A DNA stretch of 64,000 bases from Subsaxibacter sp. CAU 1640 (GTDB lineage: Bacteria > Bacteroidota > Bacteroidia > Flavobacteriales > Flavobacteriaceae): the NCBI RefSeq assembly GCF_023156585.1, contig NZ_JALNMI010000002.1, forward strand, positions 62,001 through 126,000, written 5' to 3'. Below the pieces are notes generated by a model. It was not told the DNA's origin. It saw only the letters and a list, made by a program, of their open reading frames with translations, and did not search any database. The position numbers and the translations under genes are program-made. Shown in pieces: positions 1 through 55,022 of the stretch. The stretch's first letter is position 1. Each line of letters starts with the position of its first letter.

Positions 1-98
1 GACAATTGCAAAGCCAAATTATAGGCATGATTACCAATACCTCCAGGCTGTGGAGGAAATTCAGATGTAATGATTAGAATGCGCTTTTTACTTTTCAA
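1..98 (-). CDS. Glycosyltransferase family 4, N-terminal fragment (partial)
   Basis: The first 32 codons of a gene that runs off the left edge. The reading begins with a TTG whose last bases overlap the stop of the upstream glycosyltransferase (TTGA at 98-95). The translation contains ILIITSEFPPQPGGIGNH, the typical first strand and glycine-rich loop of GT4 (GT-B fold) glycosyltransferases, which add sugars from nucleotide donors to a growing glycan at the cytoplasmic face. The same TTGA junction occurs at 13075-13072 in this cluster, which supports the start. Family assignment rests only on this N-terminal motif; donor and acceptor are unknown. Confidence 0.75.
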   Translation of the reverse strand, partial: MKSKKRILIITSEFPPQPGGIGNHAYNLALQL

Positions 99-1426
99 TT
101 TAAAGTTTCAATTTGTGGGCCCTGTTTTAATTTAATCGTTGCAAGACGCCAAGATTTAATGATTTGAATCACTATAAAGGGGCTAATAAAAATTGCAATG
201 ATAGATCCCAACAACATCATTCCCCTGCTTCTCTTAAAACGATAAGGCATAACTGATGAAGGCATAACTTTAAATAAATTAAGTAGGGCTAATTTGTTTC
301 CGAAATAGTTTCTATAAAAGTACAAAACTGAAGGAATAGGTCTTGGTGCAAACAAGTTTTTGGGACGCAAGGCATCCCAGCTACCCATTTCCCGTAATCC
401 TCCATCTATTGCCTTAAGATGTAAACGTTCTGCAAATGGATTTGAAATATTCAACATATCGCTCAAATATGAACGTAAACCAAACTCACCATCTCCCATA
501 CGCTGCTTCTCAAATTGTCTGTCAAATAATCCGATTTTCTCAAAAACCGCTTTCTTCAATAATACATTTCCTGTGTCCAACTGGTCACTGACTCTTAAAA
601 AAGAATAATTTCCTGGAACTTTTGCACCAACAGCAGATATAGAAACACCAGAAGACAAATCAGCATTAAAATAATCTAAACATTTTAAATGTTCAGATAT
701 CCAATTTGATTTGACCCTACTGTCATCATCAAAAAGCAGTAAATAGTCTCCTCTAGCTATCTGAATTGCCTTGTTTCTTGCCAACCAGAGAGCTTTCTCA
801 TTCTGTTTTATAAGGCTGATATCAAGATTGAACTTTTTATAAAAGTCTTCATCAAGTGGCTCGGATTGGTCAACGATAATGATTTCAAAATTTCTATAAT
901 TTTGACACTCTAAATCTTTAAGAACGTCTTTTAGATAACTATATCTATTTAAAGTAGGAATAACTACACTTACAAGGGGTTTAAGCTCCAAAAGGGTTGA
1001 TTTGAAATTATCGTATCCATTGTGAATGATAGGTTGATCATTTAAATTGACTCGGATGACATCTTTTGACGACACAAAAGCCTTTAGTTCTTTCACAGGA
1101 TTTTTAAAGCTAGCCAATCTCAAAACTAAAGTATATAGAACCCAAGCAGGATGAAAGTTTTTTCTAATGAATCTGTAATTATCTTTCAAACTTACTTCTT
1201 CAACCGTTATATAAGTATCTGCATTGCCTACGTAACCCTTTTGTACTGCCTGCCAAGAAAGATCATACTCGGTTGCTTTCAATGAATCATACCCGTCATC
1301 TTGCACTAACTGCTTCAATATAGTTTTGTCCAGTTGTTCAATTTTCGGAAATACAGATTTCCCCGATTTGGTGTACAGTTGGAAATAGTGGGTAGGCTGC
1401 AAGTACTTTAAAATTGGAAATAGCAT
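95..1426 (-). CDS. Glycosyltransferase family 2 with N-terminal extension
   Basis: A GT-A fold family 2 glycosyltransferase of 443 residues. The catalytic domain starts at about residue 152 (VSVVIPTLNR) and carries the metal-binding acidic cluster DDD at about 233-235, followed by the conserved tail that contacts the acceptor. About 150 residues precede it that I cannot assign to a family. A hydrophobic stretch at about 404-424 probably anchors the C-terminus to the inner membrane. It is co-directional with the whole polysaccharide locus and overlaps the next gene by 4 bases. Role inferred: adding a sugar to the surface polysaccharide; the specific linkage cannot be read. Confidence 0.85.
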   Translation of the reverse strand: MLFPILKYLQPTHYFQLYTKSGKSVFPKIEQLDKTILKQLVQDDGYDSLKATEYDLSWQAVQKGYVGNADTYITVEEVSLKDNYRFIRKNFHPAWVLYTLVLRLASFKNPVKELKAFVSSKDVIRVNLNDQPIIHNGYDNFKSTLLELKPLVSVVIPTLNRYSYLKDVLKDLECQNYRNFEIIIVDQSEPLDEDFYKKFNLDISLIKQNEKALWLARNKAIQIARGDYLLLFDDDSRVKSNWISEHLKCLDYFNADLSSGVSISAVGAKVPGNYSFLRVSDQLDTGNVLLKKAVFEKIGLFDRQFEKQRMGDGEFGLRSYLSDMLNISNPFAERLHLKAIDGGLREMGSWDALRPKNLFAPRPIPSVLYFYRNYFGNKLALLNLFKVMPSSVMPYRFKRSRGMMLLGSIIAIFISPFIVIQIIKSWRLATIKLKQGPQIETLN

Positions 1427-1486
1427 AAAATGGGATATTTCATCAAAAGATCATTTTTATTTCAATTATATACTAGGATAAATATT

Positions 1487-2563
1487 TCAATTCAAAAGTT
1501 CATACTTAATTTGATTATAAATAACCGCTTTATCAAAGGTCTCATGATATAAATTTTCGAAATATGAACCTTTCAAGCTTTTATTAACAATATGTGCAGT
1601 CAATTTTTCATTAAGTTCATCTACGGAAGTTGGATCAAAGGTAAAATTGTTTATTTCGAAACGATCTTTATCAATAAAATTAAGTGCCCCAAACTTTGAT
1701 GATACGATTACCGGTCTACCCAAAGCAATGGCTTCAATAAATACCAATCCAAAAGCCTCATTGAGACTGGGTAACACTAGTACATCCATTTGTTCATAAA
1801 ATGACACCATCTCTTGTACTGATAAAGGGCCTAAAAAAATCACCTCCTTTTGAATTCCTAAAGTATTGATCTTTTTTTCCAGTTTAGGTTTATCTGGACC
1901 ATCTCCTGCTATAAATAATTGAATGTTTTCAAGTCCAGCATTTTTTAAAGAATTAATTGATTTAAAGATAATTTGATGGTTTTTGTCCTCTAAAAGTCTA
2001 CCTGGGCAACCTATTTTGAATGCATTCGGAAATTTATTTTCATACATAGAAGTGTTAGGGAAAGAGCGAAAGTTTAAAATATTTGTCCAAAAGGGTATAC
2101 ATCTTGTATTATTTTCTGGAACACCATAGATGCTATGCATTTCTTCTTTTAAAATTTTAGAATTGGCAATAACAAGTTGTGCCATTTTAAGGAAAAGTGA
2201 TTTTATATAAACCTTAAAAATGTTGGGTTTTCCATGTCCATAAACCGTATGAAACCATACAACATTTTTTTTTATGCCATAAAATTTACCGAACAATAAT
2301 GCTGGGTTGACCAAGCTGAAATTTGAAAGTATGACATCTGGCTTTGTAAGCTTTATGATTTTTCGAATATTGTTATAATTCTGAAAATATCCTGCACGCT
2401 TGTTTCCATACACATTAACCCCATTTAGAGAATAATTTTCTTTCTTGCTTTTTAAATGAAAGTTATACACTTGGTGGCCATCTTCTGCCAGCTTTTCAGA
2501 TAATTCTTGAAAAAAATCTGAAAGCAACCCTTTGTTTCGCGTATAAAATAATAAAATCTTCAA
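1487..2563 (-). CDS. Glycosyltransferase family 4
   Basis: A GT-B fold glycosyltransferase of 358 residues. The N-terminal half begins MKILLFYTRN and has the acceptor-side fold; the C-terminal donor-binding half starts around residue 184 (IGCPGRLLEDK), with GDGP at 220-223 and the family EX7E motif in NEAFGLVFIEAIALG at about 268-282. The start codon is TTG; no ATG exists nearby and the protein begins exactly at the first beta strand, so TTG is well supported. It belongs to the leftward polysaccharide operon, 69 bases downstream of a sulfotransferase-like gene. Substrate unknown. Confidence 0.88.
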   Translation of the reverse strand: MKILLFYTRNKGLLSDFFQELSEKLAEDGHQVYNFHLKSKKENYSLNGVNVYGNKRAGYFQNYNNIRKIIKLTKPDVILSNFSLVNPALLFGKFYGIKKNVVWFHTVYGHGKPNIFKVYIKSLFLKMAQLVIANSKILKEEMHSIYGVPENNTRCIPFWTNILNFRSFPNTSMYENKFPNAFKIGCPGRLLEDKNHQIIFKSINSLKNAGLENIQLFIAGDGPDKPKLEKKINTLGIQKEVIFLGPLSVQEMVSFYEQMDVLVLPSLNEAFGLVFIEAIALGRPVIVSSKFGALNFIDKDRFEINNFTFDPTSVDELNEKLTAHIVNKSLKGSYFENLYHETFDKAVIYNQIKYELLN

Positions 2564-2632
2564 TTATCTAAATTATGGGATTGCACTAAATATTATTTCA
2601 AACTAAAGTACAAAAACTGTAATATATTTGAT

Positions 2633-3424
2633 TTATCTTGCCGCATATACTTCATTGTCTATTTTTATAAAATCTTTTATCAATGCCTCAAAAGTTTCAT
2701 CATTTTGAAAATTTTCATATCTATTGTTAAAACGACTATTTTCAAAACTACTCCCGCCACCATATCGATTCAATATTTTATTGGACTCTTGCAAATCCGA
2801 TATAAAAAATGGCTTTAAATTCATTTTTCTTAAGTCAGCCATCAAATGATTATATCTTACAATATTGATATCGATACTTTCTGAAATTGAATGATGATCA
2901 AACCATATATTTCTAGTAAACTCGACTACTTTTTTATGTTTTCGAAGTTGGTTGGCCATATGGGCATGGTTCAATCTACTTGCCATTACATTCTTTACAT
3001 CCCGGATTATGAGCAATTTTAAATATTCTGTGTCTTTAAAATGTTTTGTATTCAAAATGTACTTACAAGAATCATGATAATCTTTCAGTATTAAGTCTTC
3101 AAATCCAACTATCAATAATATTTTTGAGGAAAACCTGAATTTGACTTGTAAGCCATGATTTCCATCAATTTGATGTTTTATTCTTTGATTGTTGAAAAAT
3201 ATGACAGAGGCACTTGTCGAATCCATCAGAGTTTTCATTAGGAAATGATTACCAGACCTCCGCATTCCGTTAATAAAAACAATTTTTACATTCCTGTGAT
3301 TTAGCTTTAAAACTAGTTTTAGCAAAAAATCATATATAGACACATAGAGTCTGTAGGGTCTACTTTTCCATAGTTTCTTTTTTAAATTGTAAAATGGTAT
3401 TTTCTTGGATAAATCCTGCATCAT
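2633..3424 (-). CDS. Sulfotransferase-like P-loop protein
   Basis: A 263-residue protein with a PAPS-sulfotransferase-type P-loop (NGMRRSGNHF, about 52-61) following a short beta strand, and a second conserved segment (LLIIRDVKNVMASRLN, about 135-150) like the 3'-phosphate-binding RDP..V...S motif of the family. It would move sulfate from PAPS to a sugar hydroxyl in the cytoplasm. It is one of five such genes in this locus and is diverged from the other four. Two adjacent ATGs start the frame (3424 and 3421). The fold assignment is fairly safe; true sulfotransferase activity and acceptor are inferred. Confidence 0.72.
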   Translation of the reverse strand: MMQDLSKKIPFYNLKKKLWKSRPYRLYVSIYDFLLKLVLKLNHRNVKIVFINGMRRSGNHFLMKTLMDSTSASVIFFNNQRIKHQIDGNHGLQVKFRFSSKILLIVGFEDLILKDYHDSCKYILNTKHFKDTEYLKLLIIRDVKNVMASRLNHAHMANQLRKHKKVVEFTRNIWFDHHSISESIDINIVRYNHLMADLRKMNLKPFFISDLQESNKILNRYGGGSSFENSRFNNRYENFQNDETFEALIKDFIKIDNEVYAAR

Positions 3425-3492
3425 TTAAAATTTCATGAAATAAAATTCAGCTTTTAAATTTTCTGGTCAATAGCCGATTTATATAAGAGAGA

Positions 3493-4176
3493 TTAAGTTA
3501 GCCCGTGTCTTGAGAATTTCAACATAATTTGTTGTTCGTCAGATTTTTTTCCAGTAATGTGACCTAGGTCTTTCAAACTGCCTAAAACCTCCAAACTCAG
3601 GCCATATTTATAGGCTAAATTCCTATAAAACTCCAAGGTCCTAAAAACCACAGGGAATCCTTGCCATTGTCCTTCTTTGTTAGAACCAATGTTGACGTTT
3701 GCGTAAAATTTGCCATCTTCGGACAATAGTTTACTCGCCATTTGAAAACAAGCATCAACTATAGTATCATTAAGATGAATCAATACCGAAAATGCAAACA
3801 TGACATCAATCTCATCATCAGCCTTTATTTCATCGAAATGATTAAAATGAATCAGTTTTGGCATTTTGTGTAGTAAATTCGATGCCTTAAGTTCCTTTAT
3901 ACCCTCTTCTAAAACCCCCTTTCTAACCTCTATTCCATAATAGTTAGACACATCCAGATAATCAATTATGGGTATGCCACCCCGTAATGTACCACAACCA
4001 ATATCCATCAGTTTATCGGATGGCTTAAGACCTTGACTCATCAAAAATTTTATTTGAAAGTCTCTCTTCATTTGCCATAGATTGCCAGCTCCCACCAAAG
4101 AATGCCTTTTCTCCTTACTGGTTTTAAAGAGATTACTCAAACTTTGTTTGATCTTAAATAAAGAACTTTGACTCAT
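3493..4176 (-). CDS. Class I SAM-dependent methyltransferase
   Basis: A 227-residue Rossmann-type methyltransferase. Motif I is at about 57-67 (MDIGCGTLRGG), the acidic end of strand 2 appears in YYGIEVRKG, and the strand 4 region is in DVMFAFSVLIHL. About 55 residues of basic N-terminal sequence precede the SAM domain. Its place between a sulfotransferase and a second methyltransferase in the polysaccharide locus suggests methylation of a sugar, or capping of the glycan, rather than of nucleic acid or protein. Target not readable from sequence. Confidence 0.8.
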   Translation of the reverse strand: MSQSSLFKIKQSLSNLFKTSKEKRHSLVGAGNLWQMKRDFQIKFLMSQGLKPSDKLMDIGCGTLRGGIPIIDYLDVSNYYGIEVRKGVLEEGIKELKASNLLHKMPKLIHFNHFDEIKADDEIDVMFAFSVLIHLNDTIVDACFQMASKLLSEDGKFYANVNIGSNKEGQWQGFPVVFRTLEFYRNLAYKYGLSLEVLGSLKDLGHITGKKSDEQQIMLKFSRHGLT

Positions 4177-4229
4177 TTCTTTTTTGTATTAAAGTTGATT
4201 AAATTGTTTTGTTATAATCTCACTTCTGA

Positions 4230-4973
4230 TTATCTCAATTTATAAGCAATAGCCACCAAGTGTGCCGTTTCAACAGGCACATCGTCTAAATTTTTAGATT
4301 GGAATTTGTTTATAACATTGCTCGCCATAGCCTTGATAACTCCCGCTGGATTATTTTTTTTAAATCCCTTTAAACCGTTTAATCTATACTTACCCGTTTT
4401 TACCGCATAATGGACATCTACTTTATGGAAATAGTGCGAAAGCAATGCTTTTAATTGATCTTTGGTATAATGACGTATATGATCTAAATTTCGGTTAATG
4501 CCTTCATTCTTTATGTAATCGCCATTAGGAGTAGTGAAGTAAGCCCATCCACCAGGTTTAATTACCTTTGATATGTTTTCCACAAAAATGGTATCTGCTT
4601 CCACATGCTCAATGACCTCAACACATACTACGGCATCATAGGATGAATCCCGCAATGTACAGGCTGTCATATCTTGAATAATAAGGTCTTTAATATTAGA
4701 GCGTTTTTTTTGGATGGTAGACAATATTGCTTCAGTAAAGCCTAAATTCAATTCGGTTTTAGTACCACCTTCTTGAGGTATGTCCATTAAAGTAAAATCA
4801 GCATCTATGCCAACACTGTAGGGTGATTTTCTTCCCCCGACATCTAGGATATGAAGGTTTCTCAAAGATTTTATATCTTTCTTCACTAACTTTTTAATAT
4901 CGCTTCTAACAGTTTGCAAGTGCACAGGCATCACAGGAAAGGTGAACCACCTAAACCATTCGTATCGTGTCAT
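4230..4973 (-). CDS. Class I SAM-dependent methyltransferase (Methyltransf_11 type)
   Basis: A 247-residue methyltransferase with motif I LDVGG at about 43-47, the post-I acidic region, VCVEVIEHVE at about 116-125 (the strand-4 motif common in small-molecule and glycan methyltransferases) and PGGWAYFTTPN at about 140-150. Residues 1-40 are aromatic and basic. It sits in tandem with the methyltransferase encoded just downstream but differs clearly in sequence, so the two are not a recent duplication. A role in O-methylating the exported polysaccharide is inferred from context only. Confidence 0.82.
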   Translation of the reverse strand: MTRYEWFRWFTFPVMPVHLQTVRSDIKKLVKKDIKSLRNLHILDVGGRKSPYSVGIDADFTLMDIPQEGGTKTELNLGFTEAILSTIQKKRSNIKDLIIQDMTACTLRDSSYDAVVCVEVIEHVEADTIFVENISKVIKPGGWAYFTTPNGDYIKNEGINRNLDHIRHYTKDQLKALLSHYFHKVDVHYAVKTGKYRLNGLKGFKKNNPAGVIKAMASNVINKFQSKNLDDVPVETAHLVAIAYKLR

Positions 4974-5084
4974 TATATCGATTGTGTAATAGAATTAATC
5001 TTATGCAATAATAAAGTTTAAATCCCAATAATCCTTGAGGTATTTTTAAAACATTGGTGCCTTTTTGTTTTAAAAAGCAGAATA

Positions 5085-6278
5085 TTAATATGTGTAAAAC
5101 CTAATAAAAGCTTTTTGCTGTGTTTCCAAATCAAATTCCTTTTTAACGCGTTCAGAAGCCTTATATTTTATTGTTTGAAACTCCTCAACAGGCATGTCAA
5201 CAACTTCCATAATTCTTTTGGCCAAAAGCTCTGGTCGTCTTTTTGGAACAACCCAACCAGTAATGCCGTCAACCACATTCTCATCAAGCCCTTCTGCGTT
5301 GGACACGATACAAAACACTTGCATACATTGAGCTTCTAAAACTGAATTACAAAATCCTTCTTGAACACTATATTGTAGGTAAATATCGGTTTTTTTTAGC
5401 ACCTCTTTAATTTCTGCTGGTGTCAATTTTCCCGCAAACTCTACGCTGCCGGTCAATCCTAATTGATGCACAGCAAACGCCAAACGTTCTAACTCCTCTC
5501 CTTCACCTATAATTGTATAATTAAATGGGATTTTCTTTTCTTTAAGTAGAGCCAAACAATCTAGGGTATAGTTCAATCCCTTTTTCCAATGAAGTCTGGC
5601 TATTGTTGTGATTTTTAAAGAATGATGGTCGACAACAGATTTAGGTTCATTATTTGAAAAAAATTCAACATTAATCGCAGGAGTTATCACATGTATCATT
5701 TCATCTTTTATTCCATATTCCAACAATGTGGTCTTCATTCCTTTAGACAAGACGTGAAACTTAACCTCCTTTTTGAAAAGCAAGTCATAACAACCAGGGT
5801 GTTTCAATGGAGAGAGATATAAATCGTAACCTCTAAAACTAACAGCCATTTTGGCCTTGATAGCCATGGCTACATTTTCCCGTCCGTTAGCCAACATTCC
5901 AAACCCAAAATGGAGCCAATCCAAATCTTCTGAAAATAAAAATTGATTAAGCACTACTGATTTTAAACAATTTACCAAAGGTTTTCCGTCCTTGGCTTCC
6001 AATTGAAACAGTCGATAGCTTGTCAAAGGATATTTAAAAAAAATCTTGAAAAGAGACAAGAGCAAACTATAAAGCAACTTTAGTGTGGACCCGCTATAAA
6101 CTGTACCGCTGACAATCTTGCATGGAAAATCTTTAGCTTTTGGTACTTTATAATCTACAAACAGAGTTACCTTATGGCCATTTTCAATTAACCCTTTTAT
6201 CTTATTTCGAAAAAAAGTTTCTGAATAACTGGGAACTGAAGATAGCACAATACCTATATGTTTAGGTTTCACAGTCAT
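5085..6278 (-). CDS. Glycosyltransferase family 4 (WcaL-like)
   Basis: A GT-B glycosyltransferase of 397 residues resembling the colanic-acid WcaL/AmsK branch: an N-terminal PSYSETFFRNKI segment, then donor-domain motifs HWKKG (about 230-234), GEGEE (about 258-262) and QEGFCNSVLEAQ (about 306-317), with the two glutamates of the EX7E motif. It overlaps the upstream glycosyltransferase gene by 4 bases (ATGA at 6278-6275), indicating translational coupling. The two neighbours are similar in length and layout and may be ancient paralogues acting on consecutive sugars. Confidence 0.88.
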   Translation of the reverse strand: MTVKPKHIGIVLSSVPSYSETFFRNKIKGLIENGHKVTLFVDYKVPKAKDFPCKIVSGTVYSGSTLKLLYSLLLSLFKIFFKYPLTSYRLFQLEAKDGKPLVNCLKSVVLNQFLFSEDLDWLHFGFGMLANGRENVAMAIKAKMAVSFRGYDLYLSPLKHPGCYDLLFKKEVKFHVLSKGMKTTLLEYGIKDEMIHVITPAINVEFFSNNEPKSVVDHHSLKITTIARLHWKKGLNYTLDCLALLKEKKIPFNYTIIGEGEELERLAFAVHQLGLTGSVEFAGKLTPAEIKEVLKKTDIYLQYSVQEGFCNSVLEAQCMQVFCIVSNAEGLDENVVDGITGWVVPKRRPELLAKRIMEVVDMPVEEFQTIKYKASERVKKEFDLETQQKAFIRFYTY

Positions 6279-26610: not shown

Positions 26611-29094
26611 TTAATTTCTCAAAACTTTCTTCACCCGCTCCCAAAGTGAGCGTTTCCCATTGCCTTCATGGTAGGCATTCCCATACGTGCCATAGCCATA
26701 ACCGTAGCCATAACCGTAGCCATAACCGTAGCCATAATTATGATTGGTTTTGTGCTTATAGAAGTTGAGCACAAAACTGATGTTCTTGACCTCTCCTGCC
26801 CTATATTTAGCATTGATGAGGGATAACATTCCTTTCTTGGTGTAATCTAATCTAACCATAAAAATAGTAGCATCTGCATATTGTGTTAACTCCAAAGCAT
26901 CTGTTACGAGTCCAAGAGGTGGTGTATCAAGAACTATCATATCATAACTATCACGAAGCTGCTCAATAAGTAGTTTCAATTGGTCAGACATTAAGAGTTC
27001 CGAAGGGTTGGGTGGTACTGGACCTGATGGAATAACATCGAGGTTTTCAATAAAGGTATGAGTTCGCACCTCATCTAAAGTACTTTCACCGATGAGATAA
27101 TTGACCATTCCCTTATCATTAGTGATTTGAAAATCATCAAATATTTTTGGTTTCCTCAAATCAAGCCCCAGTAAAATTGTTTTCTTCCCAGACAAAGCAT
27201 AAACTGTTGAAATGTTAATTGAGGAAAAAGTTTTTCCTTCACCACTTACGGAAGATGTTATCAATAGAGTTTTGCCTTTGTCTTCTTTTCCTTGTTTTTT
27301 AAAGATAAATTGTAAACTTGAACGAATCGATCTAAAGGATTCAGCCACTGCTGACTTTGGCTTTTCAAAAACCACCAAATTATTTTTGTAATTGTACTTT
27401 CCAATCAATCCCAAAATAGGAATGCTCGACAAACGCTCTATTTCATCTGAACCGTGAATGGTATTATCCAGCAGAAAAATCACAAAAATAAAAAACATAG
27501 GACTAAAAAATCCCACCATTAATGCCATCATATAATTGAGGCTTTTATTAGGTCCTATCAAACCACCTCCAATATCTTTAGCCTCGTCAATAGTGGTAAT
27601 GTCACTAACATTGGCGGCTTTTACAATAGCAGCTTCTCCGCGTTTGGCGAGGTAAATATTATAAGCTTCTTGACTTAAATCCATCTTTCGCTGGATTTTC
27701 AAGTACTCCTGTTGATCTTCTGGCAATTTGCCTAATTCAGCCTCAAGCCTAGCAATATTCATGTTAATATTGTTAAGATTACTGCTGATTGTTTGTTTAG
27801 TTGTGGTAATTGTTTCTAACAGTACATTTTTTTCCGCATCAATTTGTCTGTCGATATCTTTAAAAAGAATATTTCCTTCCTTAACCGTATATTCTTTAGA
27901 TTGACGTTCAATTGCAAGCGCTGTAATTTTACCTACACTGTTCAGAATATTGCTTTCAGAAATGCCTACAGACGTCGGTGCAGCAATTTTGGTATAATCC
28001 GTTTTGGTCCTCAAATAAGTTTCCAAAGAATTTAGATAATTGAGCTTCATCTTTTCTTCTTCTTTGTTTAAATCATAAGCCTTTAGCTTCTCTGATATTT
28101 GTGCCATTTCAGAAGTAATATCAAACAACTTATTTTCTTTTCGGAATTGGTTCATTTCATCGGTGACATCCTTTAAATTGGCATTGACTGCCGCCAAACT
28201 ACTATCAATAAAATTTATGGTATTTGTAGCATAGAGGTTTTTACGCTCCAACTCTGTACGGCTCAAAATAGCAGAAGTAGCATTCAAATAGTCAACAATC
28301 TTTGATTTGTTGCTCCCTGCTAAACTTAATTCCAAAACAGAGGAGGAATTCCCATTGAAGGGCGAAATAGAAACCCCTGTCTGATATTGATTTACAACGG
28401 TATCATAATTAAGAAATTGAAAATAAAACTGATCGTCTGATATCAAGGGTTGCTCGAGTCGTCTTTTAATTGTCCCATGAAAAAAAGGTAAATCAATACT
28501 CTGCCCAAAAATAAACTTGCGTTTGAACTCACCAATTGAAGTAATGACATTGTATTTTTCTTTATTGGCATAACTTTGCACACTGTAACTTTCATTTTCA
28601 AATAGAATGGTAATTTCAAACTGTTGTTCGTTTAGGATACGAATACCAATCGGATGATTTAAAATTTGACCTTTGGTCTTATCCAGGATAATTTCAAAAG
28701 GAGCTTTTTTATAGATGTCCTCTTTACGATATTTACCTTCTTTTAAATATTCCACATAATACTCTAGAGAATCAACCACTAGCTCATTATGTGTTCTTGT
28801 TTTTACAGTGGTAAGCACTTTCCCTACCTTACCGGAAACACCTCCCCAGTTAAAGGAAATACTTGTATTGGATGTAAAAAACGGATTTTGGTCACTTTCC
28901 ACTGAAATCAATGAGCTCAACTTGTAAATATTTTGTTTTCGAACATTGATTAAATAAGCTATGACCAAAGCCAAACCGACACAAATCAGCACAAACTTCC
29001 ACCAGTTTAATACTTTGAACAAGTAGCCCCTAAAATCAAAGGTGGTACCTCTTGGCTCATTTCGATCTTGTTCACTATACTCTAATTCAGGCAT
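26611..29094 (-). CDS. Wzc-like polysaccharide co-polymerase with BY-kinase domain
   Basis: An 827-residue inner-membrane protein: Wzz-type N-terminal domain with a first membrane helix at about 33-50, a long periplasmic coiled-coil part, a second helix at about 535-555, then a cytoplasmic bacterial tyrosine kinase with Walker A GEGKT (about 618-622), Walker A' LGLDLRKP (about 642-649) and Walker B VLDTPP (about 721-726). The tail at about 786-800 is a run of eight Tyr-Gly dipeptides, the expected autophosphorylation cluster. It controls chain length and export with Wza. No Wzb-type phosphatase gene is visible in the window. Confidence 0.93.
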   Translation of the reverse strand: MPELEYSEQDRNEPRGTTFDFRGYLFKVLNWWKFVLICVGLALVIAYLINVRKQNIYKLSSLISVESDQNPFFTSNTSISFNWGGVSGKVGKVLTTVKTRTHNELVVDSLEYYVEYLKEGKYRKEDIYKKAPFEIILDKTKGQILNHPIGIRILNEQQFEITILFENESYSVQSYANKEKYNVITSIGEFKRKFIFGQSIDLPFFHGTIKRRLEQPLISDDQFYFQFLNYDTVVNQYQTGVSISPFNGNSSSVLELSLAGSNKSKIVDYLNATSAILSRTELERKNLYATNTINFIDSSLAAVNANLKDVTDEMNQFRKENKLFDITSEMAQISEKLKAYDLNKEEEKMKLNYLNSLETYLRTKTDYTKIAAPTSVGISESNILNSVGKITALAIERQSKEYTVKEGNILFKDIDRQIDAEKNVLLETITTTKQTISSNLNNINMNIARLEAELGKLPEDQQEYLKIQRKMDLSQEAYNIYLAKRGEAAIVKAANVSDITTIDEAKDIGGGLIGPNKSLNYMMALMVGFFSPMFFIFVIFLLDNTIHGSDEIERLSSIPILGLIGKYNYKNNLVVFEKPKSAVAESFRSIRSSLQFIFKKQGKEDKGKTLLITSSVSGEGKTFSSINISTVYALSGKKTILLGLDLRKPKIFDDFQITNDKGMVNYLIGESTLDEVRTHTFIENLDVIPSGPVPPNPSELLMSDQLKLLIEQLRDSYDMIVLDTPPLGLVTDALELTQYADATIFMVRLDYTKKGMLSLINAKYRAGEVKNISFVLNFYKHKTNHNYGYGYGYGYGYGYGYGTYGNAYHEGNGKRSLWERVKKVLRN
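26695..26736 (-). repeat. 12-bp tandem repeat encoding the Wzc Tyr-Gly tail
   Basis: Three and a half perfect copies of gccataaccgta (plus strand) lie inside the 3' end of the kinase gene and encode the Tyr-Gly run. Because 12 bp is a whole number of codons, slippage would add or remove two Tyr-Gly dipeptides without a frameshift. Confidence 0.9.
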
Positions 29095-40885: not shown

Positions 40886-41359
40886 TTATTGCGGTTTCTC
40901 CTCTAAACTGTATTTCAAACGGACTTTTTTCGCCCAATCTATCACTGATTTTATTTGTTCGTCAGATAGCTTTGCTTCAGGATGCCCCCAAGTATAGGAG
41001 GGCAAAGGCATTTCACGCTCTTCAACCATCTCTATCAATTCATCAAACTTGTGGTCTTTACGCTTTATTGAATTATCATTCCAGTTTGAGATATTGAAAT
41101 GCTTTTTACCGTCTTCAATATGTTCTGCCATCCAATAATTTACTGGAGTTATCTGACTATACCAAGGATATCTTGTAACGTCACTATGGCAATCATTGCA
41201 ACTCTCCTTGAGAATCAGCTTTACATTTTCTGGCGGATTTGTGTCTGCATAAAAACTATCTATGGATGCCAAATCACCTTGATTTTTTTCTGGTCTAAAA
41301 AATTGAGCAACCACAAAAATGATCAGCAAAACAAGAAGTATTTTTTTTAAAATTTTCAC
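40886..41359 (-). CDS. Haem-binding domain protein (cytochrome-like, PF14376 type)
   Basis: A 157-residue protein with an N-terminal membrane helix or uncleaved signal (ILLVLLIIFVVAQFF) and one CNDCHSD motif (CXXCH, about 54-58) for covalent haem c, followed by YPWYSQITPVNYWMAEHI, the signature of the haem-binding domain family common in Bacteroidota. It would lie in the periplasm and carry electrons or sense redox or gases. GTG start at 41359. Conserved C-terminal PLPSYTWGHPEAKLSDEQI supports the family. Confidence 0.87.
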   Translation of the reverse strand: MKILKKILLVLLIIFVVAQFFRPEKNQGDLASIDSFYADTNPPENVKLILKESCNDCHSDVTRYPWYSQITPVNYWMAEHIEDGKKHFNISNWNDNSIKRKDHKFDELIEMVEEREMPLPSYTWGHPEAKLSDEQIKSVIDWAKKVRLKYSLEEKPQ

Positions 41360-48506: not shown

Positions 48507-49646
48507 TTGAAAAAATTCACATTCATATTTCTGTTTCTTGCCGCTTTCAGTTGTAAAGAAGATAAAGAAGTAAAATTACCTTCTTTTGAATCAGAAGAAA
48601 ATGCTATTTCCTATGCCAAGGGTTTCTCGATAATAAACTTCCAAGATTATTCGGTTCTCGAAATAAAAAATCCGTGGCCGAAGTCTGAAAAAACCTATCG
48701 TTATGCATTGGTAAAACAAGAAAAGTTATCAGTCATTACATTAAATTCAGATGAGTTTGACGGAATTTTAAGTGTCCCAATCGAAAAAATAGTGGTCACT
48801 TCCACAACACATATTCCAGCGTTGGAACTGCTTGGTGAAACCAAAAGCTTGATCGGTTTTCCTGGAACGGATTATATTTCTTCAGAAGATGTGAGGAAGC
48901 GAATAGATAACAATTTAGTTAGGGAATTGGGCAAAAACGAAGGCATCAACACAGAAGTTTTACTTGAACTGCGACCAGATGTTGTAGTTGGTTTTGGGAT
49001 TGATGGCAACAACAAAACTTTTGAAACCATCAAAAAATCAGGCATTCCGGTAATCTATAATGGCGATTGGGTTGAAACGTCACCTTTGGCAAAAGCAGAA
49101 TGGGTTAAATTTTTCGGTGCACTTTACGACAAGGAAAAAGAAGCAGATTCAATTTTCAATCAAATAGAAAAAGATTATGTAGAAGCCAAAAAAATTGCTT
49201 CCGATGTACAGAAAAAGCCAACTGTTTTAAGTGGTGCATTGCACAAAGATGTCTGGTATTTACCAAGTGGCAGCAGCCCTGAAGCACAACTTTTAAAAGA
49301 TGCTAATGTCGATTACTTATGGCAAGATGTTAAAAGTGAAGGAAGTTTAGCATTGAGTTTTGAAGCTGTTTTTGAAAAGGCTAAAAACGCAGAAATATGG
49401 ATTAGCCCCTCTTATTACAATTCGCTGGAAGCTCTTGAAAAAGCAAACGAGCATTACACGCGTTTTGATGCTTTCAAGAACAAAAACATATACTCTTTTG
49501 TCAATACAAAAGGAGCCACTGGTGGTGTCACCTATTACGAGCTGGGAACTGCAAGACCAGATTTGGTGCTGAAGGATTTGGTAAAAATCTGTCATCCAGA
49601 ATTATTGACGGATTACGAGCCTCACTTTTTTAAGAACTTGGAATAG
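48507..49646 (+). CDS. ABC transporter substrate-binding lipoprotein (BtuF/FecB type)
   Basis: A 379-residue periplasmic lipoprotein: signal FTFIFLFLAAFSC with the lipidated Cys at about residue 16, then a two-lobed Peripla_BP_2 domain (IVVTSTTHIPALELLGE, LLELRPDVVVGFG, GIPVIYNGDW). It would bind cobalamin or a ferric siderophore and feed the FecCD-type permease. The start is TTG at 48507, directly ahead of the signal peptide, with no ATG alternative. Between the terminator and the start there are only ~80 bases, too few for a cobalamin riboswitch, so the ligand stays open. Confidence 0.85.
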   Translation: MKKFTFIFLFLAAFSCKEDKEVKLPSFESEENAISYAKGFSIINFQDYSVLEIKNPWPKSEKTYRYALVKQEKLSVITLNSDEFDGILSVPIEKIVVTSTTHIPALELLGETKSLIGFPGTDYISSEDVRKRIDNNLVRELGKNEGINTEVLLELRPDVVVGFGIDGNNKTFETIKKSGIPVIYNGDWVETSPLAKAEWVKFFGALYDKEKEADSIFNQIEKDYVEAKKIASDVQKKPTVLSGALHKDVWYLPSGSSPEAQLLKDANVDYLWQDVKSEGSLALSFEAVFEKAKNAEIWISPSYYNSLEALEKANEHYTRFDAFKNKNIYSFVNTKGATGGVTYYELGTARPDLVLKDLVKICHPELLTDYEPHFFKNLE

Positions 49647-50675
49647 TTGGAGCAAACGAAAACATATCGTTCGTCCTTTATAATCCTCACAATTCTTTTG
49701 GTGTTATTTTTCTTTTTGAACATTAGTCTGGGTTCCGTTTCTATACCTATTTCAGAAACATTTAAAAGTTTATTTGGGTCAATTGAAAATGAATCCTGGC
49801 AATACATCATACAGAATTACCGATTGCCGAAAGCTTTTACAGCAATTTTGGTTGGTTCAGGCCTTGGTATTTCGGGTTTGTTGATGCAAACGCTTTTTCG
49901 AAATCCGTTGGCTGGACCTTTCGTTTTAGGTATCAGTTCTGGGGCAAGTCTGGGAGTCGCCTTGATAATTCTTGGTTCTGGGTTTTTGGGAGGCATTTTT
50001 ACTACGATTTTAGTGTCAAAATGGAGCGTTGTCATTGCTGCGAGCTTGGGTAGTTTTTTGGTACTCTTGGCAGTGTTGGCAGTATCGTCAAAAGTAAGAG
50101 ATACGATGGCAATCCTCATCATTGGTTTGATGTTTGGAAGCATTACTGCAGCCATTATAAGCGTCCTCTCCTATTTTAGTTCTGCGGAAAAACTGCAGCA
50201 ATACATTTTTTGGGGATTCGGAAGTTTAGGAAATTTATCTTGGACTGAATTGTTCATTTTCTTTCTCGTTTATAGCATTGGATTGGTGTTGAGCATCCTT
50301 TCAATCAAAGGGCTGAATACCTTATTATTGGGTGAAAATTATGCCAAAAGTCTGGGTCTTAATTTAAAACAAAGTAGATTCATCATCATCATAGCCACAA
50401 GTTTATTGGCAGGAACTGTGACAGCCTTCGCAGGACCGATTGCTTTTATCGGTTTGGCAATTCCGCATTTAACACGACAGTTATTTCATACATCCAATCA
50501 TAAAATTTTATTGCCAGCCGTATTTTTGTTTGGTGCCATTTTGATGCTCATTTGTGACAGCATTGCACAACTTCCAAATAGCGATTACACCTTGCCAATC
50601 AATGCCATAAATTCTCTGGTTGGAGCTCCAGTTGTGGTTTGGTTACTGGTGAGAAAACGACGGATGATTTTTTAA
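49647..50675 (+). CDS. FecCD/BtuC-family ABC permease
   Basis: A 342-residue polytopic permease with about ten hydrophobic helices and the family segments YRLPKAFTAILVGSGLGISG, LFRNPLAGPFVLGISSGASL, and GPIAFIGLAIPHLTRQL, the latter contacting the ATPase. It starts with TTG at 49647, the base after the stop of the binding-protein gene, so the two are coupled. It imports vitamin B12 or iron chelates through the inner membrane. The ATPase gene follows after 126 bases of repeat-rich sequence. Confidence 0.9.
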   Translation: MEQTKTYRSSFIILTILLVLFFFLNISLGSVSIPISETFKSLFGSIENESWQYIIQNYRLPKAFTAILVGSGLGISGLLMQTLFRNPLAGPFVLGISSGASLGVALIILGSGFLGGIFTTILVSKWSVVIAASLGSFLVLLAVLAVSSKVRDTMAILIIGLMFGSITAAIISVLSYFSSAEKLQQYIFWGFGSLGNLSWTELFIFFLVYSIGLVLSILSIKGLNTLLLGENYAKSLGLNLKQSRFIIIIATSLLAGTVTAFAGPIAFIGLAIPHLTRQLFHTSNHKILLPAVFLFGAILMLICDSIAQLPNSDYTLPINAINSLVGAPVVVWLLVRKRRMIF

Positions 50676-50723
50676 TTAGATTAAGATGTTAGAACCAAGA
50701 ATCAAGACTGATAATTTACAAAT

Positions 50724-50778
50724 TTTGAACTTTTATCTTGAACTTTGAATTTGGAATTTGGAATTTGGAACTTTAAAT
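50724..50778 (+). repeat. Heptamer tandem repeat within the uptake operon
   Basis: tttgaac, ttttatc, ttgaac, tttgaat, ttggaat, ttggaat, ttggaac, tttaaat: eight units, seven of them exactly 7 bases, between permease and ATPase genes. Same family as 31953-31987. Confidence 0.8.
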
Positions 50779-50789
50779 CTATATAAAAG

Positions 50790-50805
50790 ATTCGTGAATT
50801 AGTGA
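50790..50805 (+). repeat. AATTYGTG octamer repeat supplying a start codon
   Basis: attcgtg followed by aattagtg; the GTG in the second unit (50802-50804) is the start codon of the ABC ATPase gene, as at 40822-40839 on the other strand. Confidence 0.65.
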
Positions 50806-51596
50806 CTACAAAAAATGAACATATCGTTTTAAAAACCGAAAACCTTTCGATTGGCTATACATTGAAAAAGGAAAAAAAAGTGATTGCCTCAAATATTAAT
50901 TTGGAACTTCAAAAAGGAAAACTCATTGGGTTGGTTGGTGCGAACGGTATTGGAAAATCGACTCTTTTGAGAACACTTACAAATGTTCAAAAGCCATTGG
51001 AAGGTGTGGTTTATCTAAATTCAAAGTCCGTAGAGTACTACCAGCCTGTGGAACTGGCAAAACAAATGAGTTTAGTATTGACCGAACCTATTGCTTCTAA
51101 AAATCTGTCGGTCTTTGAGTTGATTGCTCTTGGCAGACAACCTTACACCAATTGGGTTGGAAACTTAACCGAAGAAGATATCAGAATCATCAATCAGGCG
51201 ATTTTATTGACTAATATCGATGACCTAAAAAGCAAAAAATGTTTCGAATTAAGTGATGGCCAACTTCAAAAAGTTATGATAGCACTAGCCTTGGCCCAAG
51301 ATACCGATTTGATAGTTTTAGACGAACCCACAACCCATCTCGATATGTACCATAAAGCTTACATCTTAAAACTTCTTCAAAAGCTTACAAAAGAAACAAA
51401 AAAAACCATTCTATTTTCTTCTCACGAAATCGATTTGGCCATTCAACTTTGCGATATGATGATTGTAATGACCAAAAATCAAGTGATTTCAAATCAGCCT
51501 TGTAAATTGATTTCAGAAGGCGTTTTCAATAATTTATTTCCTCAAGACTTAATAGTTTTTGATGAAGAAACCGGAAGTTTTCGCGTTAATAAGTAA
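50802..51596 (+). CDS. ABC transporter ATP-binding protein (FecE/BtuD type)
   Basis: A 264-residue ATPase: Walker A GANGIGKST at about 47-55, signature LSDGQLQKVMIALALA (the usual LSGGQ is LSDGQ here), Walker B LIVLDEPTTHLD, and an H-loop in FSSHEID. It completes the three-gene importer with the binding lipoprotein and the permease. Its GTG start lies within an octamer repeat; the next ATG in frame would remove conserved sequence. The altered signature Ser-Asp-Gly is seen in some relatives and should still be active. Confidence 0.9.
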   Translation: MTTKNEHIVLKTENLSIGYTLKKEKKVIASNINLELQKGKLIGLVGANGIGKSTLLRTLTNVQKPLEGVVYLNSKSVEYYQPVELAKQMSLVLTEPIASKNLSVFELIALGRQPYTNWVGNLTEEDIRIINQAILLTNIDDLKSKKCFELSDGQLQKVMIALALAQDTDLIVLDEPTTHLDMYHKAYILKLLQKLTKETKKTILFSSHEIDLAIQLCDMMIVMTKNQVISNQPCKLISEGVFNNLFPQDLIVFDEETGSFRVNK

Positions 51597-53051: not shown

Positions 53052-53603
53052 ATGAGTCATTTTAAAACGGTTGATGAATCTCGTATTTCAATTTCTGAAT
53101 TGATGCAACCGTCGCATTCCAATTTTAACGGAAAAATTCACGGAGGTTATATCCTCAATTTGATGGACCAAATTGCCTTTGCCTGCGCTTCAAAACATTC
53201 CGAAACTTATTGCGTAACAGCTTCTGTAGATACGGTTGATTTTTTGAAACCTATTGAGATAGGCGAATTGGTTACAATGAAAGCATCCATCAATTATGTT
53301 GGCAATACGTCTATGGTTGTGGGCATTCGTGTAGTTGCAGAAAATATACGAACAGGAAAAGTGAAACATTGCAATTCGTCTTATTTTACGATGGTTGCCA
53401 AGAACGATGAAGGCAATTCTGTGGAAGTTCCTGGTTTGATATTGAATGATAAACAGGAAGTGAAGCGTTTTCTAAAGGCTTTAAAGAGAATTGAGACGAA
53501 ACAATCGAGGCAAATGGAATTTGAAAATGAAGATTTCTCGCATATGGACTACCTTCATTATCTCGAAAAACATAAAGTCAAGATTGAATTACCGGACAGA
53601 TAA
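53052..53603 (+). CDS. Acyl-CoA thioesterase (hotdog fold, YciA-like)
   Basis: A 183-residue hotdog-fold thioesterase that hydrolyses acyl-CoA. Conserved elements: LMQPSHSNFNGKIHGGYILN with the GG..L turn and central helix, followed by LMDQIAFACAS, TASVDTVDFLKPIEIGE for the catalytic Asp strand, and a C-terminal basic helix with HYLEKHKVKI. It is translated right after rmuC (3-base gap). Its stop at 53601-53603 abuts the four-fold palindrome array that precedes the SatD-like gene, so no terminator is visible in between. Confidence 0.88.
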   Translation: MSHFKTVDESRISISELMQPSHSNFNGKIHGGYILNLMDQIAFACASKHSETYCVTASVDTVDFLKPIEIGELVTMKASINYVGNTSMVVGIRVVAENIRTGKVKHCNSSYFTMVAKNDEGNSVEVPGLILNDKQEVKRFLKALKRIETKQSRQMEFENEDFSHMDYLHYLEKHKVKIELPDR

Positions 53604-53707
53604 TATCATATTTTTGTGTGATATTTTAAATTATCTCATAAAAATGTGATATATTTGAATATCATTAAAATAAATGATAATTAATCTTATCATTAAAAAT
53701 TAAGATA
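53604..53707 (+). promoter_or_regulatory. Array of four 20-bp inverted repeats at 28-bp period (operator array)
   Basis: Four sites start at 53604, 53632, 53660 and 53688, exactly 28 bases apart. Each is TATC-N12-GATA: the first two are close to TATCnCA-N6-TGTGATA, the third is a perfect palindrome with 7-base arms (TATCATT and AATGATA), the fourth ends on the A of the ATG. The array fills the entire 103-base gap. A perfect -7 element, TATATTTG, is at 53650-53657, between sites 2 and 3, so a protein bound here would block the promoter. Confidence 0.85.
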
Positions 53708-54324
53708 TGACAAGTATTATCACAGGAGATATCATTAAATCCAGGACTCTAAAAAAACCTGGACTTTGGTTATCAACATTGAAAAAAGCGCTGACAACCA
53801 TAGATAGCGATGAATCGAATTGGGAAATTTTTAGAGGTGACAGTTTTCAAATCGAGGTTCCTAACATCACTGAAAGCTTCCAAGTTGCTCTATATATCAA
53901 AGCCTGCGTAAAATGTATCAAAGATTTAGATGTGAGATTGGCGATAGGCATTGGCACCAAAAATTTCGAAGGACAAAAAATCACAGAATCCAATGGTGAA
54001 GCATTCCAATTTTCGGGTGACACTTTGGAAACATTAAAGAAAGAAAAGGTCAATCTGAAAATTAAAACAACTAATAGTCATCTCGATAAAGAGCTTAACT
54101 TATATTTTAAATTGGCTTTGATTGTAATGGACCATTGGACTACAAATTCGGCAGAAATCGTTAAATTGACACTTGAACGACCAACGGCTTTACAAGAAGA
54201 ACTTGGCAAAATTATAGGTATCAACCAAAATGCCATAAGTGGACGTCAAAAAAGAGCTCATTTGGATGCAATACTGGAGTTGGACGCTTTGTACAGAGAA
54301 AAAATAAACACTTTAAAAGGATGA
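53707..54324 (+). CDS. SatD-like protein, possible cyclase-fold sensor with C-terminal HTH
   Basis: A 205-residue protein beginning IITGDIIKSR, the mark of the SatD family, whose function is not established. The layout ITGDI (Asp8), FRGDSF (Asp45), VRLAIGIG (about 79-86) and a later G.AF.FSG..L segment follows the order of class III nucleotidyl cyclases, whose two metal Asp residues sit in the same places; this is my inference. Residues about 155-200 (ALQEELGKIIGINQNAISGR) look like a helix-turn-helix. It overlaps the DUF3307 gene by 4 bases and lies immediately after the operator array, so self-repression is plausible. Confidence 0.75.
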   Translation: MTSIITGDIIKSRTLKKPGLWLSTLKKALTTIDSDESNWEIFRGDSFQIEVPNITESFQVALYIKACVKCIKDLDVRLAIGIGTKNFEGQKITESNGEAFQFSGDTLETLKKEKVNLKIKTTNSHLDKELNLYFKLALIVMDHWTTNSAEIVKLTLERPTALQEELGKIIGINQNAISGRQKRAHLDAILELDALYREKINTLKG

Positions 54325-55022
54325 TATTCTTAAAGTTATTGTTAGCACACATCATTGGAGATTTCTTTCTTCAGCCACAACAATGGGTAGAAGAAAAAGA
54401 GAAGAAGAAACTAAAATCGCCAAAACTATACCTTCACGTTCTGATCCATATACTTTTAATGTTTGTATTGCTTTGGAATTTAAGATTATGGCCAATCATT
54501 CTTGTAATTGGAGTTTCTCATTTTATAATTGACGGCATTAAACTGTCATTTCAGAAGAAAAAAACAAAAAGACTATGGTTCTTTATTGATCAAGCGCTGC
54601 ACGTTGCACTGATTGCAATTATATATTTCATCTATTTTGATGCAAATTTTGATATTGAGAATTACATCACTGAACAAAGTCTATTGTTAATCGTCTGTCT
54701 TTTATTCTTGACAATTCCGGTTTCGATTATTATGAAAACCATTTTCTTGAAATGGGATATTTCAAAATTGACTGAAGGCAATGAATCACTGGAAGATGCA
54801 GGAAAATATATCGGAATTTTAGAGCGACTGTTAGTATTTACCTTTATAATTCTCGACCATTGGGAAGCTGTCGGTTTTTTGATTACTGCAAAATCTGTAT
54901 TCCGATTTGGAGATTTGAAAGAATCGAAGCATCGTAAATTGACCGAATATATTCTGATAGGAACCTTAATCAGCTTTGGCATTGCGATCGTGGTCGGAAT
55001 CATTTTCAATTCAATTGTATAA
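54321..55022 (+). CDS. DUF3307 membrane protein
   Basis: A 233-residue inner-membrane protein with about six hydrophobic helices. The N-terminus, LKLLLAHIIGDFFLQPQQW, and the following HVLIHILLMF are the DUF3307 signature (H..GDF.LQ). A central segment has ILVIGVSHFIIDGIKL, with polar His and Asp in a membrane helix. It is coupled to the SatD-like gene by an ATGA overlap; this pairing recurs in other bacteria to my knowledge. Function unknown. A terminator begins just after its stop. Confidence 0.85.
   Translation: MIFLKLLLAHIIGDFFLQPQQWVEEKEKKKLKSPKLYLHVLIHILLMFVLLWNLRLWPIILVIGVSHFIIDGIKLSFQKKKTKRLWFFIDQALHVALIAIIYFIYFDANFDIENYITEQSLLLIVCLLFLTIPVSIIMKTIFLKWDISKLTEGNESLEDAGKYIGILERLLVFTFIILDHWEAVGFLITAKSVFRFGDLKESKHRKLTEYILIGTLISFGIAIVVGIIFNSIV

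Follow-up and report, generated by a model that had tools for sequence, protein, structure and literature searches.

A 28-bp palindrome array before the satD-DUF3307 gene pair is a probable autoregulatory operator whose half-sites change with the SatD recognition helix

The intergenic gap before a satD-DUF3307 gene pair of Subsaxibacter sp. CAU 1640 contains an array of palindromes, which is very probably the autoregulatory operator of the two-gene operon and is most likely bound by the SatD-like protein encoded by its first gene. Bench data on binding or expression are not available. The geometry of the array is kept among relatives, whereas the letters of its half-sites are not, and the letters change together with the recognition helix of SatD. 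The array, its conserved spacing, the coupling of helix and half-site, the pairing of the genes, and the predicted folds of the proteins are computational observations. Computation by itself makes a strong case for an operator; that SatD binds it and represses the operon, and what DUF3307 does, are inferences. In the absence of binding data, satD-DUF3307 is interpreted as an autoregulated two-gene operon, which is a known kind of system, with an unusual regulator and a readable record of the joint change of operator and helix.

Organization of the array

The gap between the stop codon of a thioesterase gene and the ATG of the satD-like gene is formed of four 20-bp TATC-N12-GATA palindromes, the starts of which are 28 bp apart. 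Coordinates refer to the window, which is the whole stretch of 64,000 nucleotides that was analysed.

53604 to 53623, no strand assigned: putative operator palindrome 1, TATCATATTTTTGTGTGATA
53632 to 53651, no strand assigned: putative operator palindrome 2, TATCTCATAAAAATGTGATA
53650 to 53657, plus strand: TATATTTG, a candidate for the -7 promoter element of Bacteroidota, whose first two bases are also the final two of site 2
53660 to 53679, no strand assigned: putative operator palindrome 3, TATCATTAAAATAAATGATA
53688 to 53707, no strand assigned: putative operator palindrome 4, TATCATTAAAAATTAAGATA, the last base of which is the A of the satD ATG

The original prediction placed the four palindromes at 53604, 53632, 53660, and 53688, stated that the fourth ends on the A of the start codon, and described the array as filling the gap before the gene pair. 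All three statements hold: the four sites span 104 bp, the last of them ends at 53707, and the thioesterase stop codon at 53601-53603 directly adjoins site 1, so that the array occupies the entire gap. The predicted perfect -7 element is present on the plus strand, but it does not lie wholly between sites 2 and 3 as had been claimed; it overlaps site 2.

The pattern TATC-N12-GATA has five matches in the 64 kb of the window, the fifth of which is at 41074. Shuffles of the window contain 1.06 matches on average (sd 1.11), and none of 100 reaches five. By a rough estimate, four sites in register would arise by chance with a frequency of ~5e-15 per window. The satD array is also the best lag-28 self-match among all 175-bp stretches of the window, taken in 5-bp steps. 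Neither a repeat search of 53400-53900 nor Tandem Repeats Finder run on the window reported the array, as its sites have no more in common than arm letters and spacing. A second exact 28-bp pair was not found in the 3.47 Mb of the window's own genome. Elsewhere in the window, a perfect 12-bp tandem repeat, TAGCCATAACCG, is present in 3.8 copies at 26693-26737. Positions 48507-51596 hold three consecutive genes whose translations resemble a substrate-binding protein, a permease, and an ABC ATPase, and by the look of these translations they may form an iron or cobalamin uptake system.

The even spacing recalls the iterons of plasmids, a likeness raised in the original prediction, and an element of replication or partition could be imagined at this position. 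The sites are palindromes rather than direct repeats, and no direct-repeat family was found in 53400-53900. They lie beside a promoter-like box on a contig of 657,935 bases, and the array recurs before the same gene pair in relatives. The four proteins scanned around the array (RmuC, thioesterase, SatD, and DUF3307) include no Rep family. The iteron likeness is not supported, and such an element is extremely unlikely.

Conservation of the spacing upstream of satD

Sixty whole genomes were searched for two TATC-N12-GATA palindromes separated by any linker from 0 to 30 bp, and 22 pairs were found. An 8-bp linker, which corresponds to the 28-bp period, occurs in 18 of them, distributed in ten genomes, and every one of the 18 adjoins satD. 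The other four pairs have linkers of 1, 7, 7, and 11 bp and belong to genomes without a satD match. The absence of 28-bp pairs elsewhere in the 60 genomes means that no wider regulon is seen for the site type of the window. A control with the reversed pattern gave 13 pairs in the same genomes, the linkers of which were not listed.

SatD matches were present in 32 of the 60 genomes of relatives, the window's own included, and in 100 of 395 genomes across the phylum. From the 101 SatD places listed for the phylum set, 11, mostly weak or partial, were not fetched. Five duplicate loci (L033, L037, L043, L073, and L108) were dropped, as were L111, L119, L121, and L124, which repeat earlier loci.

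Arrays precede satD in most of the closer relatives, but they are written in other letters. The half-sites include TATCA, TATCG, TATTCC, TATTAC, TATWAGC, TATCTG, TGTTAC, and others, each placed opposite its own reverse complement. In 105 satD upstream regions, the mean self-match at lag 28 is 0.486, compared to 0.318 at other lags (sd 0.014 over the other lags); lag 28 ranks first in 81 of these regions and among the top three in 94. The comparison of orthologous upstream regions suggested with the original prediction thus shows that the 28-bp geometry is conserved: the highest self-match falls at lag 28 in 124 of the 190 upstream regions of satD from Bacteroidota and in none of 80 AT-rich control windows. 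Among the 85 regions fetched later, it is the top lag in 41. The idea that the letters TATC and GATA are themselves conserved across the family is false, as half-sites differ between lineages. The width of the palindromes is supported by 352 exact pairs of 5-bp arms at width 20, compared to 63.9 in shuffles. The array finder gives a small bonus to TA at both ends and thereby favours TA-edged sites; the lag self-match test carries no such bonus.

The top period over the 190 regions is 28 bp in 133 (56 counted in) and 29 bp (or 57/58) in 25, and 32 regions have neither. The 29-bp (or 57/58) loci, namely L013, L021, L028, L029, and 21 from L122-L199, belong mostly to more distant SatDs. Seven of the nine fetched loci of family f32, the HTH of which is different, are among the 32 without either period (L185, L186, L187, L190, L191, L192, and L195). 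Some arrays are mixed, with TATC-type and TATTCC-type sites together (L006, L046, L051, L053, L064, and L076), and look as if operators are rewritten one site at a time.

The gap is AT-rich, and a chance assembly or simple AT-rich repeats might be suspected for this reason. Shuffles and AT-rich control windows fail to account for the array, and the reversed pattern, which is a weaker control, also falls short of the true pattern in the 60 genomes. An origin by chance can be set aside for practical purposes.

Structure of SatD and DUF3307

The proteins encoded downstream of the array are listed together with the part of SatD that is discussed below.

53707 to 54324, plus strand: satD-like gene, 205 amino acids, N-terminal palm at ~1-123 with conserved D8 and D45, C-terminal HTH
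54226 to 54255, plus strand: codons of recognition helix 174-183, delimited in the structure model; residues 175, 176, and 179 couple to the half-site
54321 to 55022, plus strand: DUF3307 gene, 233 amino acids, 4-bp overlap with satD (ATGA); product predicted to be all-helical and probably located in the membrane

The Pfam family PF16264 (SatD) matches residues 5-183 of the first protein with 25 bits (E 1.7e-5). The score is under the curated cut-off of 29, and the protein is therefore called SatD-like. As a whole-genome query, PF16264 gave no match in the window's genome or in 14 controls, and it was not used in this way. The structure model of SatD has a pLDDT of 95.6 and places HTH helices at residues 163-183, in line with the C-terminal HTH-like segment that had been claimed for the gene. 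The best sequence match of the SatD profile in the PDB is the HTH of the antitoxin HipB (E 0.0036), and a search with the whole SatD-like protein matched none of the Pfam HTH families.

The N-terminal part of the model has a palm fold like that of class III adenylyl cyclases, GGDEF domains, and Cas10/mCpol polymerases. Foldseek aligned the model with the adenylyl cyclase MA1120 at E 5.6e-4 and with OptS at E 2.7e-2. VIA-align gave a Z of 10.0 to the GGDEF domain of DosC (rmsd 2.8 over 118 residues) and a Z of ~9 to 10 to many cyclase and GGDEF members, which indicates a shared fold and does not prove membership. Residue D8 is kept in 188 and D45 in 189 of 190 SatDs, and D45 is within the RGDSF of a hairpin, where GGDEF would lie. 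Judged from motif position and without a superposition, D8 and D45 may correspond to the metal aspartates of cyclases and GGDEF enzymes. Since both aspartates are kept, the palm is likely to bind a metal and a nucleotide. Catalysis is possible, and there is no enzyme assay to support it.

The second protein belongs to PF11750 (DUF3307) with 111.4 bits (E 3.9e-32), above the curated cut-off of 23. In a 42-row alignment, H10, D14, H39, H43, H67, D71, D90, and H94 are invariant. By inference, these histidines and aspartates resemble a metal site that lies in the membrane or next to it. The model of DUF3307 has a pLDDT of 89.5 and a pTM of 0.67 and has no convincing match among solved structures, with a best E of 2.1 in Foldseek and a best Z of 7.2 in VIA-align. 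Such weak matches are no proof of a new fold.

Half-sites and the recognition helix of SatD change together

The half-site follows residue 179 of SatD, the codon of which is GGA at 54241-54243 in the window and which is preceded by the conserved Ser178. A glutamate at this position goes with TATCG, lysine with TATTCC, arginine with TATTAC, glutamine with TATWAGC, and a small residue (S, T, G, N, or M) with TATCA. The coupling scan used 127 of the 190 loci, selected for at least two in-phase sites, a coherence of at least 5, and a consensus starting with TAT. Among the 205 columns of SatD, residue 179 has the highest mutual information with half-site bases 4-6 taken jointly, and N175 is second. 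It also has the top phi in all three bands of pairs of similar N-domain identity (0.65, 0.61, and 0.34). For bases 5 and 6 taken singly, one of two scores ranks A176 or N175 above 179. All three residues, 175, 176, and 179, are within helix 174-183 of the model. R179 occurs with TAC in all 20 usable loci; L044, in which R179 is combined with TATC-type sites of low coherence, was left out by the filter.

Joint changes were also counted on a tree built from SatD residues 1-150 and DUF3307, which leaves out the reading helix of the HTH. Half-site bases 4-6 underwent at least 43 changes on the tree of the 127 loci. Residue 179 and the half-site change together on 14.8 branches, compared to 5.1 expected, and residue 179 ranks first of 195 variable columns, with columns 199, 176, and 4 fairly close behind. 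Tests of independent pairs on supported branches point in the expected direction and almost never in the opposite one; the informative pairs are too few for significance (2.6 of 7 pairs for K and 5.4 of 9 for small residues lack a base difference; median p at least 0.125).

The residue-179 code was put on record before the phylum set was fetched. The 85 loci fetched later include 34 that are usable, and in 33 the residue is covered by the code. The code agrees with the half-site in 21 of the 33, a number not reached in any of 20,000 shuffles (mean 7.9, maximum 16). Counting one locus for each distinct combination of helix and half-site, 13 of 24 agree, compared to 5.1 in shuffles, which reach this value once in 20,000. 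Without three near-duplicates, L132 (of L109), L135 (of L134), and L136 (of L104), agreement is 19 of 30, compared to a mean of 7.3 and none of 20,000 shuffles. The R179 class has close relatives in the first set and was left out of a further recount; without it and the near-duplicates, 13 of 24 agree (mean 7.6), which 33 of 20,000 shuffles reach.

Of the 91 training loci, 15 depart from the code, as do 12 of the 33 later ones, often with changes at residues 175, 176, or 181. A recognition code of one residue was rejected as too simple. The exceptions are partly regular. Where residues 175-176 are SN or GN, E179 accompanies TATCTG (L024, L115, L134, L135, and L162), and TATCGT is seen where G179 precedes R and then W or F (L093, L102, L149, L153, and L154). 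In L012, which is also G-R-W, the left arms are TATCA and the right arms read TATCGT. Pending binding data, the misses suggest that 175, 176, and 181 may be further contacts. The loci L133 and L148, in which the HTH carries Q174R, have TGTTAC in place of TATTAC half-sites. This would fit a role of Q174 in reading the outer A-T pairs.

Direct demonstration of binding by SatD is lacking, and another host regulator might occupy the array while SatD merely travels with it. The half-site letters track the recognition helix above any other column of SatD, and in 60 genomes exact 28-bp pairs of the window type occur only at satD. Control by another host regulator is therefore unlikely. The possibility of a third, linked regulator that changes in step with SatD has not been formally ruled out.

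Provided that SatD is the protein that reads the array, the satD-DUF3307 operator has been rewritten in nature dozens of times along with residues of the recognition helix, and the loci offer a natural protein-DNA recognition code with more than 100 worked examples, written by two or three helix residues. One regulator with one private target of fixed geometry, in which letters change on both sides, constitutes a natural experiment. How an HTH and its operator can change together without loss of control becomes directly testable.

Promoter overlap and proposed function of the operon

The consensus of the Bacteroidota -7 promoter element is TAnnTTTG. In loci that have two or more sites, 155 occurrences of this element were counted no farther than 130 bp from the start, and 87 of them begin at offset 18 of a site. 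With this phasing, bound SatD would cover the promoter. Since the half-site letters follow its recognition helix, SatD is most likely the protein that binds this array and a repressor of its own promoter, with both binding and repression inferred. The proposal that SatD-like protein binds an operator array of the two-gene unit is thereby supported in its core by sequence comparisons, without bench binding data. The co-change of half-site letters with the helix goes beyond the conserved spacing that had been looked for.

SatD, probably as a dimer, would bind each 20-bp palindrome through its C-terminal HTH. Bases 4-6 of the half-site would be read by residues 179, 175, and 176, and the outer TA probably by glutamines 163 and 174, which are highly conserved. 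As many as four dimers in 28-bp steps could cover the promoter, the -7 box of which begins at the edge of a site, and neighbouring sites might be filled cooperatively. Occupancy of the array would shut off satD and DUF3307, two genes with a 4-bp overlap. DNA binding is most likely tuned by a nucleotide that the palm domain senses or makes, and the output of the operon would be the DUF3307 membrane protein. Direct binding, the dimers, repression, gating by a nucleotide, and an antitoxin-like check on DUF3307 are all inferred. Autorepression is the simplest reading, and activation in its place is not excluded.

The palindromes could also form folds in RNA and act as an attenuator, terminator, or riboswitch. 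Such an element is very unlikely: site 1 and most of site 2 are upstream of the probable -7 box, positions 53400-53900 contain no terminator-like site, the window as a whole yields no Rfam family at its gathering score, and the arms co-vary with the DNA-reading helix of a protein.

Under the autoregulatory interpretation, a protein family that is still poorly characterised gains a role in regulation, and the cyclase-like domain of SatD points to a nucleotide signal. The interpretation also marks DUF3307, which is nearly absent from the literature searched, where one paper has the term, as the probable output of a guarded operon.

Gene pairing and mobility

DUF3307 follows SatD in 210 of 212 loci, some of which are duplicates, and the genes overlap by 4 bp in 64 of 80. 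When the lists for the 395 genomes were compared by hand, SatD was present in 100, DUF3307 in 95, and both in 89, which leaves six genomes with DUF3307 only and 11 with SatD only. In its regulator-first order, its overlap, and its near-obligate pairing, the gene pair has the layout of a HipBA-like type II toxin-antitoxin operon.

The pair is also found in plasmid records of Sphingomonas, Pseudomonas, Pseudoalteromonas, Klebsiella, Escherichia, and Enterobacter. The Pseudoalteromonas locus (L204) has two palindromes 28 bp apart just before satD (2428 and 2456), and the Enterobacter locus has two CAACC-N5-GGTTG palindromes 29 bp apart, as read by eye. Three SatD loci from viral contigs carry DUF3307; GGCC palindromes occur in two viral contigs (L206 and L207) and are 29 bp apart in L207. 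The array was not found in the Sphingomonas plasmid L202, nor did the scan find an in-phase pair in L203 or L208. In L202 (Sphingomonas insulae plasmid, 1-5558), the pair has a defence-like neighbourhood, in which the adjoining genes carry the annotations Pycsar effector, nucleotide cyclase, and TIR protein. No SatD relatives were found in phage records, and a search of viral contigs for DUF3307 with back-translated patterns confirmed none.

The pair is the only annotated cargo of plasmid pEC34A (L208, 3,770 bp), whose other genes serve replication and mobilisation, apart from one that is short and hypothetical. A SatD-like gene and DUF3307 are the main cargo of a 4,424-bp plasmid of Enterobacteriaceae (L209), and five further 3,770-bp plasmid records from Klebsiella match the SatD protein. 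At the level of megablast, none of 5,426 complete E. coli genomes matches the pEC34A pair.

It is possible that SatD is an antidote as well as a repressor and that DUF3307 is a membrane poison, with the array used as in hipBA. This toxin-antitoxin-like extension is weighed as a serious minority view on account of the pairing, the overlap, the probable autoregulation, the carriage on a 3.77-kb plasmid, and essentiality in Streptococcus pyogenes; the patchy presence among genomes and the likeness to the hipBA operators described below point the same way. According to the available part of a transposon meta-analysis, S. pyogenes satD is essential by transposon sequencing in all strains tested, is present in 178 of 249 genomes, and is the only accessory gene in the top quarter of essentiality (PMC11323703). 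To be essential where present yet absent elsewhere is what is expected of an antitoxin. However, the streptococcal gene shares only a family name with that of the window, without a sequence comparison, and there are no toxicity data. Eight SatD and DUF3307 proteins were scanned with PADLOC models without a hit, DUF3307 occurs without SatD in six of its 95 genomes, and the pair in the window sits amid housekeeping-type genes (RmuC and thioesterase).

A description of SatD-DUF3307 with its operators was not found in a literature search that did not cover bioRxiv and covered few subscription journals. As a tentative and more speculative extension of the autoregulated operon, satD-DUF3307 might be an undescribed, partly mobile, self-gated module in which a palm-HTH protein holds a membrane metal-protein effector in check through a 28/29-bp array and a nucleotide, and in which the operator has been rewritten dozens of times with the helix.

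Comparison with known systems

In the window, the alignment to the SatD family PF16264 extends over residues 5-183 and has a sub-cut-off score. Streptococcal satD has been tied to acid tolerance, and the passages available from that work do not mention operators.

SatD shares the palm fold with class III cyclases, GGDEF enzymes, and mCpol/OptS. It differs from them in ending in a DNA-binding domain, in being probably autoregulated, and in having no known catalysis. The Panoptes system (optSE), as far as the accessible text describes it, is a two-gene operon with a membrane effector, in which a nucleotide of OptS links OptS to OptE (PMC12657218). The satD-DUF3307 pair resembles it in the two genes and, if the predicted location of DUF3307 is correct, in the membrane effector. 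By analogy, SatD and DUF3307 may be connected through a nucleotide that the palm makes or senses. DUF3307 does not qualify as a Panoptes effector, which has a SAVED-type nucleotide-binding domain: the Pfam scan found no SAVED domain in the DUF3307 protein, and the model is all-helical.

The best precedent for the array is E. coli HipB, which, according to the available portions of two reports, represses hipBA by cooperative binding to four TATCCN8GGATA operators (PMC3376134, PMC3920265). In the published O1O2 oligonucleotide of hipBA, the spacing of O1 and O2, which is the only hip spacing compared, is exactly 28 bp. The two regulators have similar HTH sequences (GIKQATIS in HipB and gikqnavs in the SatD profile), have palindromic sites with this spacing as their operators, which are putative in the case of SatD, and are encoded by the first gene of a two-gene operon. 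In contrast, HipB is a small HTH protein with an 88-residue chain, whereas SatD, at 205 amino acids, joins a cyclase/GGDEF-like palm at the N terminus to an HTH at the C terminus; HipA is a kinase, and DUF3307 is a predicted helical protein with conserved His and Asp. The half-sites of SatD vary between lineages. The analogy suggests a likeness of working and is not proof of kinship. Operators of the bacteriophage Cro/CI type also consist of several palindromes read by glutamine-bearing HTH helices. The satD sites differ from these in serving one operon, with letters that shift with one helix across the phylum.
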